From NCBI GenBank assembly GCA_028867785.1, contig JAGWFS010000001.1:1-64000 (forward strand): a stretch of DNA of 64,000 nucleotides, given 5' to 3'. This DNA is from Nitrososphaerota archaeon (lineage in GTDB: Archaea; Thermoproteota; Nitrososphaeria; Nitrososphaerales; Nitrosopumilaceae). A program made the position numbers and the translations under genes. Under the pieces are notes generated by a model that was not told where the DNA came from, searched no databases, and saw only the letters and a program-made list of their open reading frames with translations. Positions 48,950-52,530 of this stretch are shown here, piece after piece (the first letter of the stretch is position 1; each line of letters starts with the position of its first letter).

Positions 48950-49720
48950 ATGAAATGTGCTGATTTTCTTTCCAAGAGGAATCTGTCAGTATACATTGGA
49001 CTTTTTTCAATTGCCATAATAATCATGATTCCGGCCTATGCAGATCCAATAGTCAAACCGACAAGCGGCGGAACTCTGAACGTAAAATTTGACACAGATC
49101 CTGCAACTCCAGATACGTCAAGCCAGACCATGCTAAAGATAAGCTTTATCGATAAAAAAACTCAGGCTGTGCAGCCCCACATTGACTATTACGTAACTGT
49201 GACACAAGGCGATCAGCAAATCACGGGGGCAGGATCACCTGACCAGCCCCTCCACACAGCAGAGGGCTCAATCAGCATCCCCATACAGTTTCCAGCTGAC
49301 GGCACATACCAGGTAAACGTCGGGGTTGAAGGAATAGTGTTCCAGCCCATTCCCCCTGAAACAGTTTCGTTTACTGTAAATGTCGGTAGTACAGGCACTG
49401 GTAATAATACTCCAAGCAACAACACTTCACAGTCACAAACAGGAAACATTGCAATCCCGTCATGGATTAAGAACAATGCCAAGTGGTGGTCGCAGGGACA
49501 AGTTGGTGACCAGGATTTTGTCAAGGGAATACAGTATTTGATTCAAAAGGGAATAATGCAGATACCTACACAGTCAAACTCTTCTGCAACAAGTGGTGCA
49601 CAGCATATTCCAGCTTGGATAAAGACAAATGCAGGCTGGTGGGCCAGCGGACAAATATCTGATCAGGACTTTGTAAAAGGAATACAGTGGCTTGTCTCAA
49701 ACGGTATAATCATGGTCTGA
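48950..49720 (+). CDS. Secreted Ig-like protein with tryptophan-rich repeats
   Basis: 256 residues: signal peptide ending near ADA at about residue 27, an Ig-like beta domain (about 35-155), a Gly/Asn/Ser/Thr linker, and two about 40-residue repeats (IPSWIKNNAKWWSQGQVGDQ... and IPAWIKTNAGWWASGQISDQ..., about 163-203 and 215-256). The same repeat is in the DUF192 protein at 37878. It is probably a surface or S-layer-associated binding module. Confidence 0.8.
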   Translation: MKCADFLSKRNLSVYIGLFSIAIIIMIPAYADPIVKPTSGGTLNVKFDTDPATPDTSSQTMLKISFIDKKTQAVQPHIDYYVTVTQGDQQITGAGSPDQPLHTAEGSISIPIQFPADGTYQVNVGVEGIVFQPIPPETVSFTVNVGSTGTGNNTPSNNTSQSQTGNIAIPSWIKNNAKWWSQGQVGDQDFVKGIQYLIQKGIMQIPTQSNSSATSGAQHIPAWIKTNAGWWASGQISDQDFVKGIQWLVSNGIIMV

Positions 49721-49804
49721 TACAAATGACAAATCATTTCAAAGAACCGAACACTAATCTTGTTACGCAATGCTTAAGCAACATTATACCATATGGTGTC
49801 ATAC

Positions 49805-50350
49805 ATGTCAGGAAATAATCCAGACCTAAGAGACAAGGTGGATGAAAGCCGCGGCTTTTTCAAAAAACTGCAGCTTGTCATACCCGGTCTCAAGGAATAT
49901 CGTAAGCTTGAGGACATTAGAGCTGCAGACGAACTTCTCAGAAAGCAGGTATTTGACAGGCTTGATGGCGCAAAAAGCAAGCTTGAGATGATAAGAAAGG
50001 CAATGTCAGACAAGGGAGATTTTAACAGCCTCACTTCAATTGGTTCCATTATTTCACAGTTGCAGCAGATATCTGGCGAGGTGTTTCACTCCCAGCAAGG
50101 ATCTGCAGGAATCTCGCCTAACATCAGGATAGACGAGGGTACGCTAAACAGGTTGTACGAGTATGATTATAATTTTGTAAACAGTGCAGAGCAGATCTTT
50201 TCCACGATTACAAGTTCGCTTGGAGATTACACATCAGGAACAGCAACGGCGCAGGCAATTGCCGCAAAGATTGGCCCTATGCTCGAAGACTTCAAGCATG
50301 CTTGGAAACAAAGGCTTGAATCGGTTGAAAACATACTGGTAACAAAATAG
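49805..50350 (+). CDS. Helical protein of the SPFH gene cluster
   Basis: About 181 residues from ATG 49805 (GTG 49793 adds four). All-helical: FFKKLQLVIPGLKEYRKLEDIRAADELLRKQ, which fits a helix with the Y-R-x-x-x-x-x-R-x-A-D-x-x-L-R pattern I associate with proteins next to bacterial SPFH/zinc-ribbon genes, then DRLDGAKSKLEMIRKAM and a long C-terminal helical pair. No membrane span. 49 bp before the SPFH gene, so one operon. It may be a scaffold or a PspA-like partner, but it is too short and different to be called PspA. Confidence 0.65.
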   Translation: MSGNNPDLRDKVDESRGFFKKLQLVIPGLKEYRKLEDIRAADELLRKQVFDRLDGAKSKLEMIRKAMSDKGDFNSLTSIGSIISQLQQISGEVFHSQQGSAGISPNIRIDEGTLNRLYEYDYNFVNSAEQIFSTITSSLGDYTSGTATAQAIAAKIGPMLEDFKHAWKQRLESVENILVTK

Positions 50351-50399
50351 GAGACAAATGAAAATGATAATAACAAGAAAGACAAAAAGTGAGACATAG

Positions 50400-51488
50400 A
50401 TGTTCGGACATAAAAAAGACCCAGACTTTGGCGGAGGAAGCGTCGTCGGTTCCACAACAATAGAATGGGATTCCCAGTACAAAGAAGGAAACATCATGTG
50501 GAAGGTCCCACGGCTGATAAGACTAAACGACAACATCGTAGTAAGAGAGGACGAGATTGCGGCATTTTTCAGAGACGGAAAGGTGCTGACATATTTTGAC
50601 AAGCCAAACAGATACGCCCTGACTGATTTTAACGCGCCAATAGTTGGCGGCCTTTTAAAGTTCTTCACAGGCGTTCAGCAAGCTGCAGAGGTATACTATT
50701 TACAGAACAGATACATTGACGGAAAGTTTGGCTCGACACAGCCATACCAGTTTGTCGACCCGGTCTTTGGCATAGTGAATCTTCGAATCTTTGGAGAGTA
50801 CAGGTGGAAGATATCCCAGCCGGAAAACTTTGTCAACCAGTTTGTCGGCACTTTTGCCGCCCAGACTTCGGATGATATCGAATCAAGGCTCAAAGAACAG
50901 ATGATTCTGCTGGTATTCAATGCGGTAGGAAAGATGAAGGACAACGGCCTGAAGGTGACAGAACTTGCGGCCAACCTTCAAAATATAGAACAGGTCGTGC
51001 TTGCTAACGCGTCAACCAATTTTGGTCAGTACGGAATTGAGATTAACAAGATATCAGGACTTACAATAAGCTTACCAGAAGAGGTCCAAAAGGCAATCGA
51101 TACAAAATCTCAAATGTCCGTTCTCGGGGTCAACTACCTCCAGTATCAGGCAGGCCAGGCGCTGACTGATGCTGCAAAAAATTCAGGAGGCATGGCAGGC
51201 GTAGGATCAGGACTCGGGGTCGGATTGGGAGCAGGTACTGGATTAGGATACGTGATGGCAGGCCAGATGGCACAGGGAATGTACCAGCCTCCAATGAAAC
51301 AGTGTATCAAGTGCGGCATGGCTATGCCGGTATCAAACAACTTTTGCCCAAACTGCGGTGCAGGCCAGCAGCAGCAAGTCCAGCAACCAAAACCGCAAGA
51401 GGGAATACTGTGCCCGCAGTGCGGGGCACACATTGCCACAGATTCCAAGTTCTGCTCAAGCTGCGGCAAGTCATTGAAAACAAGTTAG
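50400..51488 (+). CDS. SPFH-domain protein with two C-terminal zinc ribbons (YdjI-like)
   Basis: 362 residues: N-terminal beta region (IEWDSQYKEGNIMWKVPRLIRLNDNIVVREDEIAAFFRDGKVL, about residues 20-62), the SPFH domain to about 240 with DIESRLKEQMILLVFNAVGKMK, a Gly-rich hinge with hydrophobic turns (about 265-290), and two ribbons, CIKCG...CPNCG (about 301-323) and CPQCG...CSSCG (about 338-359). This is the build of the virion-core/YdjI-type SPFH proteins. SPFH proteins organise membranes; the ribbons probably recruit partners. First gene of the pair that follows by 10 bp. Confidence 0.85.
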   Translation: MFGHKKDPDFGGGSVVGSTTIEWDSQYKEGNIMWKVPRLIRLNDNIVVREDEIAAFFRDGKVLTYFDKPNRYALTDFNAPIVGGLLKFFTGVQQAAEVYYLQNRYIDGKFGSTQPYQFVDPVFGIVNLRIFGEYRWKISQPENFVNQFVGTFAAQTSDDIESRLKEQMILLVFNAVGKMKDNGLKVTELAANLQNIEQVVLANASTNFGQYGIEINKISGLTISLPEEVQKAIDTKSQMSVLGVNYLQYQAGQALTDAAKNSGGMAGVGSGLGVGLGAGTGLGYVMAGQMAQGMYQPPMKQCIKCGMAMPVSNNFCPNCGAGQQQQVQQPKPQEGILCPQCGAHIATDSKFCSSCGKSLKTS

Positions 51489-51498
51489 GAGAAAAAAC

Positions 51499-52530
51499 AT
51501 GTATTGTATAAAATGCGGTTCTCAACTTCCAGATGATGCGACCTTTTGCGCCAAGTGTGGTGCAAGACAAGAGACACAATCACCGCCTGCCTCCCAACCA
51601 AAACAGCAAGATGGACCATCAGTACAGTCGCAGGAGACAAAGGAGATCAAGTGCCCAAGTTGTGGCGCACCGATATCTCCAAAATTTGGCGAGATGGTCA
51701 TAACATGCGAATACTGTGGCAGTAGTGTAACTTTGGAAAACAGCGGCTGGAAAAACATTGCAAGACATACAATGCTGCCAATAACCATAGTTGACAAAGA
51801 TGACGTCACTGGAAAATTGAAAAAAATGATGGACAAGGGCCTGTTTCACAGGCACTTGCAGGAGAGCTCCGCACTAGAAGAGATCAACCTTAGCATGATA
51901 CCATACTGGGTGATACCGGTTGCAGCTAGAACCAATCTTGTTGCTACAGACATTGCGGCGGAAGTTGGAAGCATTGCCACGACTGCGGCCTTGTTTGGCG
52001 TCATGGGGGGAGCCATGGGCGGAGGATTTGGCGGACAAGGTGGAGGCAATAGAGGAAACTTTGGAGGCGGAATGATGGACGGCATGCTCATGGGCAGCAT
52101 GCTAGGTGGAGGAGGAATGATGGGCTCTGCAAACACAAAGAAAGCATATACAATTGATGAAAATTACAATTGTCCTGTAATTGCACTCAAGGCGCTGACA
52201 TTGTATCAGCCCCATGACTATGAATTTGCACTAGATGGAAGGGTCGATTTTGATCCAAAAAAGATCCCAAAATCAGTCAAGATCCTAAACGGCGACATAA
52301 ACGAAGATGTTGCAAAAAATCAGGCCAAGACAATAGCAGACAAGCTACAGTCAGACGCGGCTCATTCCAAATACCACATGATACAGCAAATGCAGACTGA
52401 GATGGACGTCTCAAGCGGCGAACTCTTGCACGCACCAATTTGGTTTGCAAGGTATGATCACAAGGGGAAAAAAATAGTCCTAGTTGTTGATGCAAATTCT
52501 GGCGCTGTAATAAACAGCATAGGCCTGTAG
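51499..52530 (+). CDS. Zinc-ribbon, glycine-rich partner of the SPFH protein
   Basis: 343 residues: zinc ribbon CIKCG...CAKCG (about 3-21), second ribbon CPSCG...CEYCG (about 51-74), a beta domain with TMLPITIVDKDDVTGKLKKMMDKGLF and MIPYWVIPVAA, a long Gly/Met-rich hydrophobic segment (about 155-210, GGAMGGGFGGQGGGNRG...), and a C-terminal alpha/beta domain ending with LVVDANSGAVINSIGL. The double-ribbon start plus hydrophobic stretch resembles Bacillus YdjG. 10 bp after the SPFH gene. Confidence 0.75.
   Translation: MYCIKCGSQLPDDATFCAKCGARQETQSPPASQPKQQDGPSVQSQETKEIKCPSCGAPISPKFGEMVITCEYCGSSVTLENSGWKNIARHTMLPITIVDKDDVTGKLKKMMDKGLFHRHLQESSALEEINLSMIPYWVIPVAARTNLVATDIAAEVGSIATTAALFGVMGGAMGGGFGGQGGGNRGNFGGGMMDGMLMGSMLGGGGMMGSANTKKAYTIDENYNCPVIALKALTLYQPHDYEFALDGRVDFDPKKIPKSVKILNGDINEDVAKNQAKTIADKLQSDAAHSKYHMIQQMQTEMDVSSGELLHAPIWFARYDHKGKKIVLVVDANSGAVINSIGL

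Follow-up and report, generated by a model that had tools for sequence, protein, structure and literature searches.

A conserved SPFH/zinc-ribbon gene unit of ammonia-oxidising archaea as a candidate membrane-maintenance system outside the PspA family

In Bacillus subtilis the PspA gene forms a unit with ydjG, ydjH and ydjI, in which YdjG and YdjH are membrane proteins and YdjI is required for the recruitment of PspA to the membrane (PMC8581546). In YdjG a pair of zinc ribbons precedes a YpeB-related domain, and proteins with DUF4178 and DUF350 have been reported as partners in other PspA operons (PMC11237479). In archaea, genes for SPFH-zinc-ribbon proteins have been noted in ESCRT-related loci (PMC10936438), and a survey of 2009 gave no characterisation of SPFH subfamilies 6-12. 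Here we describe a three-gene locus that may be compared with these systems, its distribution among archaea and bacteria, and the function that may be proposed for it.

The analysed window is a stretch of 64,000 nucleotides from an archaeal contig. The three genes, called A, B and C here, are contiguous and co-directional on the forward strand: gene A (49805..50350, an open reading frame with a weak NF047596 match) for a 181-residue helical protein that is the putative effector in the PspA position, gene B (50400..51488, assigned by PF13421) for an SPFH protein of 362 residues with a Gly-rich segment and two C-terminal zinc ribbons, and gene C (51499..52530, assigned by zinc ribbon families and AlphaFold2) for a protein of 343 residues with two N-terminal zinc ribbons and an alpha/beta domain. 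The gaps are 49 bp between A and B and 10 bp between B and C, and the open reading frames thus bear out the layout given in the preliminary description. The host is an ammonia-oxidising archaeon, as archaeal AmoA is encoded in its assembly. Two archaeal AmoA genes were seen in this assembly of 2.5 Mb and 327 contigs (G000:C261:213874-214422 and G000:C222:130037-130585), which means either two copies or a mixed assembly.

Although the frame of A has its earliest ATG at 49793, both an alignment with relatives and a conserved promoter-like element speak for 49805 as the start codon. This element, GTTACGCAATGCTTAAGC (18 bp, 49762..49779, forward strand), ends about 25 bp before the start codon and is kept in 12 related loci whose intergenic DNA is otherwise divergent; at the corresponding position the sister clade carries GTTCTCGGAATCTTTAAG. 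It is a probable promoter (BRE/TATA), as its distance from the ATG presumably agrees with that of a TATA/BRE in front of a near-leaderless transcript. No second exact copy exists in the host genome, and the one further site found within two mismatches equals the level of a reversed-pattern control. A regulon with a common upstream element was thus not found in the genome, the element being unique to the A-B-C operon. Further upstream, positions 48950-49720 encode a secreted-looking protein with the repeated motif IP.WIK.NA.WW..GQ..DQDFVKGIQ.L...GI; the end of this protein is kept upstream of A in the clade of the window and not in the sister clade.

Protein A has no Pfam match above cut-off, and neither PF04012 nor Snf7 was matched by it. 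The sole annotated family that resembles it is NCBIfam NF047596 (LIMLP_15305 family, from Leptospira), to which no function is assigned (E=9e-10 over residues 14-171, 38.7 bits against a cut-off of 210). A is therefore not a member of this family as defined; its distant homology to relatives in Spirochaetota is supported by the profile alignment given below. The AlphaFold2 model is all-helical (pLDDT 81.5, pTM 0.76), with predicted helices at residues 6-25, 35-70, 73-94, 111-143 and 149-179; the longest has at most 36 residues, and the long hairpin of PspA and ESCRT-III is not found in this predicted model. When 54 A sequences were searched together, PF04012 and Snf7 were not among the best 25 of the 106 families matched. 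A profile search of the PDB to E=1 returned no PspA, Vipp1 or CHMP chain, and the fold search with the model gave none of these among its 50 best PDB matches and no match at all at E<=0.001. By hhalign the probability against three archaeal PspA sequences was 0.1%. These tests do not place A in the PspA/ESCRT-III family, and from its sequence and predicted model it appears to be a small helical bundle outside that family, in agreement with the earlier claim that the helical first gene belongs to a family different from PspA. Text searches of literature other than subscription papers and preprints found no description of A or of a unit of A with an SPFH gene; in the searched literature LIMLP_15305 appears in a single paper, where a table lists it among the neighbours of a non-coding RNA.

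Protein B can be assigned with confidence to the SPFH proteins by its sequence profiles. It matches PF13421 (Band_7_1) over residues 40-240 (E=5e-33, 114.9 bits against a cut-off of 24) and PF01145 with 28.5 bits against 23.6, and its zinc ribbons lie near residues 298-320 and 338-360. In the PDB a profile of the B family gave weak hits (E about 0.003-0.03 each) to chains of flotillin, stomatin, prohibitin and HflC. The SPFH assignment, whose failure had been named as a ground for giving up the proposal, stands by these sequence profiles. No window of 19 residues in B reaches transmembrane strength.

Protein C was described beforehand as a double-zinc-ribbon protein with a long hydrophobic segment rich in Gly and Met. 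The ribbons were located at residues 2-23 and about 52-74, and of the 64 residues at about 151-214, 23 are Gly and 9 are Met. With 1.47 as the best hydropathy over 19 residues, the stretch can fairly be called hydrophobic, but a confident transmembrane helix is not established. In the AlphaFold2 model (pLDDT 81.4) this segment is disordered and internal to the alpha/beta domain; the fold search with the model gave no PDB match, and the non-ribbon part of the sequence matched nothing in Pfam or the PDB. Several homologues of C have transmembrane hairpins. The ends of C homologues (e.g. LLHAPIWFARYDHKGKKIVLVVDANSGAVI) look by eye like a motif of PepSY/YpeB type, a resemblance that Pfam and Foldseek did not confirm. 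One homologue (L107:3065-4567) has an Arrestin_N-like domain at its N-terminus, before the zinc ribbon, with an E of 3e-5 that falls slightly short of the cut-off; this domain is a possible link to adaptin-like systems.

A, B and C are one evolutionary unit that is gained and lost as a block under purifying selection. Their presence pattern is identical across 61 relatives. All three genes are present in 28 genomes of the genus and absent from 9, of which two are 99% complete; as complete genomes of the genus can do without the unit, it is dispensable. The order A-B-C is constant across the genus wherever contigs allow, some C genes being on a separate contig at assembly breaks. The dN/dS values of A, B and C of the window against relatives are 0.02-0.10 and, given this together with the order kept across the genus, A-B-C is not a chance array. 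Pairwise distances of A correlate with those of B (r=0.94) and of C (r=0.93), to which shared ancestry alone contributes. In one genome (G017) a second copy is partly broken, in another (G036) C is split into several frames, and in an order-level relative (L064) two C genes are divergent from A-B.

The spread of A was sampled in one archaeal phylum, in Spirochaetota and on bacterial plasmids. The NF047596 search found A homologues in 111 of 250 genomes of the archaeal phylum, none over the cut-off of that family. From these, 40 loci of 24 other families of the phylum were chosen by A alone and with their neighbours disregarded; B follows A directly, on the same strand and within about 150 bp, in 37 of them, the exceptions being L092, L093 and L095. 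Co-occurrence beyond this strain, on which the preliminary description had made its proposal depend, is hence seen for all three genes in the genus and for A with B across distant families. In 24 of the 40 loci the few kb that were fetched include homologues of C, often as two tandem copies. These counts use the non-ribbon part of C only, because a profile that includes the zinc ribbons also picks up B; by this measure L088, L106 and L115 have no C gene. A small protein of about 110-125 residues with 3-4 transmembrane helices and no Pfam family adjoins A-B in 21 loci (within L080-L117), and a second, related small transmembrane family stands beside A-B in 5 more. No small transmembrane partner of this kind was found in the window, and the idea that the first of the two is a relative of DUF350 was not supported.

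In the same phylum PspA is over cut-off in 3 of 250 genomes, while 9 of 14 control genomes match. The host genome has no PspA match, and one genome (G057) has both A and PspA. That A prevails where PspA is rare is a suggestive pattern and not proof that A has replaced PspA, because it comes from one phylum whose lineages share history. Contamination of metagenome-assembled genomes might distort individual loci, though not the pattern as a whole. ESCRT-III proteins are native to these archaea.

The system had been proposed as an archaeal one, which proved too narrow because A-B pairs also occur in Spirochaetota. This phylum was entered through contigs bearing 16S genes, and NF047596 had matches first in 7 of 27 genomes and then in 17 of 247. 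In each of the 16 neighbourhoods read, A is followed by B, and in at least 14 of them the next genes are for a zinc-ribbon/DUF4178 protein, a longer DUF4178 protein and DUF350. Profiles of the archaeal and spirochaete A proteins align over their full length by hhalign (probability 99.8%, E=1.8e-29, 15% identity), and the positions kept in both are PG, E, D and R in the first third, G in the middle, and YD/W and R later. The third gene of the Spirochaetota operons has no homology to C beyond the zinc ribbon. A YlbF-family gene was seen upstream of A in 9 Spirochaetota loci (e.g. L179:5793-6197). The locus with the top scorer against NF047596 among Spirochaetota (L175) has a B gene (L175:4114-5118) in which, by eye, a SHOCT-like segment replaces the C-terminal zinc ribbons. 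On bacterial plasmids tblastn with A gave no match, and no A was present in the six SPFH-zinc-ribbon loci inspected there, one of which has the known SPFH-DUF4178-DUF350-polyamine arrangement.

Taken with the known PspA units, these data lead us to propose, tentatively and at somewhat less than an even balance of belief, that A, B and C form one membrane-associated machine similar to PspA-YdjGHI, in which an unrelated effector, A, is recruited by an SPFH/zinc-ribbon platform. The genome context supports the assembly of the three proteins, and the function in membrane stress is one that we infer. C, and in many other archaea the small protein with 3-4 transmembrane helices, would give contact with the membrane and would probably sense its state. 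B, which has no transmembrane helix of its own, would oligomerise into a platform on the cytoplasmic face, and its zinc ribbons may tie it to those of C. The platform would then recruit A, as a soluble helical bundle, to its site, where A may stabilise the membrane or remodel a membrane complex, which is the part of PspA in B. subtilis. It counts against this proposal that in this genome a confident transmembrane helix is found in none of A, B and C, that the window shows no small transmembrane partner and that YdjH has no counterpart. Because A is a short bundle with no detectable structural similarity to PspA, its action on membranes may differ from that of PspA.

HflKC and prohibitin are SPFH platforms for client membrane proteins. 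The main rival explanation, which we consider doubtful, is built on such platforms: B would form a chaperone or quality-control platform for membrane proteins, and A would serve as a regulator of the SPFH assembly or as one of its structural parts, and not as a PspA-like membrane effector. SPFH proteins do form cages or scaffolds around membrane enzymes, and no other gene is linked with A nearly as closely as B is, which is what a dedicated SPFH subunit or adaptor would show; Band-7 proteins have moreover been argued to be chaperone-like in PspA operons (PMC11237479), which is counted on the same side. However, the conserved neighbourhood of the unit contains no protease, NfeD or other client gene, and the DUF4178 and DUF350 partners in Spirochaetota are those of PspA operons.

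It is improbable that the unit is a trafficking or cell-division scaffold tied to archaeal ESCRT or adaptin-like systems. SPFH-coiled coil-zinc ribbon proteins of some archaeal ESCRT (Meth_adaptin) loci (PMC10936438) and the Arrestin_N-like domain of the one C homologue (E=3e-5, L107) point in that direction, but neither Vps4 nor ESCRT-III was recognised as a recurring neighbour, the unit is dispensable, being absent from complete genomes of the genus, and it is present in bacteria as well. A housekeeping or metal operon, whose zinc ribbons sense or store zinc with no membrane role, is more improbable still: B and C both have zinc ribbons and the membrane role is deduced, but the SPFH domain, the small transmembrane partners, the transmembrane hairpins of several C homologues and the PspA-type partners in bacteria speak against it, and no metal-transport genes are conserved nearby. 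The least credible reading, that A is a highly diverged PspA/ESCRT-III protein in an ordinary PSP system, has operon position, the all-helical fold and the small size of ESCRT-III relatives in archaea in its favour and is disfavoured by Pfam, PDB profile and fold matches without PspA or ESCRT-III and by the hhalign result. An anti-phage defence system was considered separately and rejected, as PADLOC models gave no significant match for A, B or C.

If the PspA-like machine is the right reading, Thermoproteota, including ammonia oxidisers, may protect their membranes without PspA, and the A-B core is a concrete candidate on which this can be tested. The pairing of A with B across archaea and spirochaetes suggests an uncharacterised membrane-maintenance machine in lineages mostly without PspA. 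In a wider and more speculative form, the A-SPFH core may be a widespread PspA-independent class of membrane protection, found in many families of Thermoproteota and some Spirochaetota, in which A took the effector role of PspA and the sensor parts vary (zinc-ribbon proteins of the C kind and small transmembrane proteins in archaea, DUF4178/DUF350 in bacteria). If true, SPFH/zinc-ribbon proteins would stay constant across such systems, and the helical effector would be the part that can be exchanged.

The locus can finally be set against the known systems one by one. The Spirochaetota homologues matched by NF047596 precede an SPFH gene, as A does. The archaeal Meth_adaptin ESCRT loci (Makarova et al. 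2024) differ in that no ESCRT-III, Vps4 or adaptin gene was recognised with A-B-C, and they likewise have an SPFH + zinc ribbon protein in a conserved membrane-related locus. The CesT/Tir, DUF350 and DUF4178 PspA operons (Ravi et al. 2024) contain a CesT/Tir-PspA pair where A and SPFH stand here, and the archaeal units are without DUF4178; DUF4178 and DUF350 are common to those operons and to the A-B operons of Spirochaetota. The likeness to the unit of B. subtilis that was drawn beforehand holds in part. The gene order is pspA-ydjG-ydjH-ydjI there and A-B-C here, A is not PspA, C has no confident transmembrane helix unlike the B. subtilis unit, and a YdjH counterpart is missing, as PF04536 (the TPM domain of YdjH) has no match in the host genome. 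B is of the YdjI type, both being SPFH proteins with a C-terminal zinc ribbon and no transmembrane helix, and its Pfam family PF13421 also occurs in B. subtilis. C is like YdjG in the order of its parts, as judged by description, another domain following the pair of N-terminal zinc ribbons, and the first gene encodes a helical protein in both units, PspA in B. subtilis and A at the same place here.
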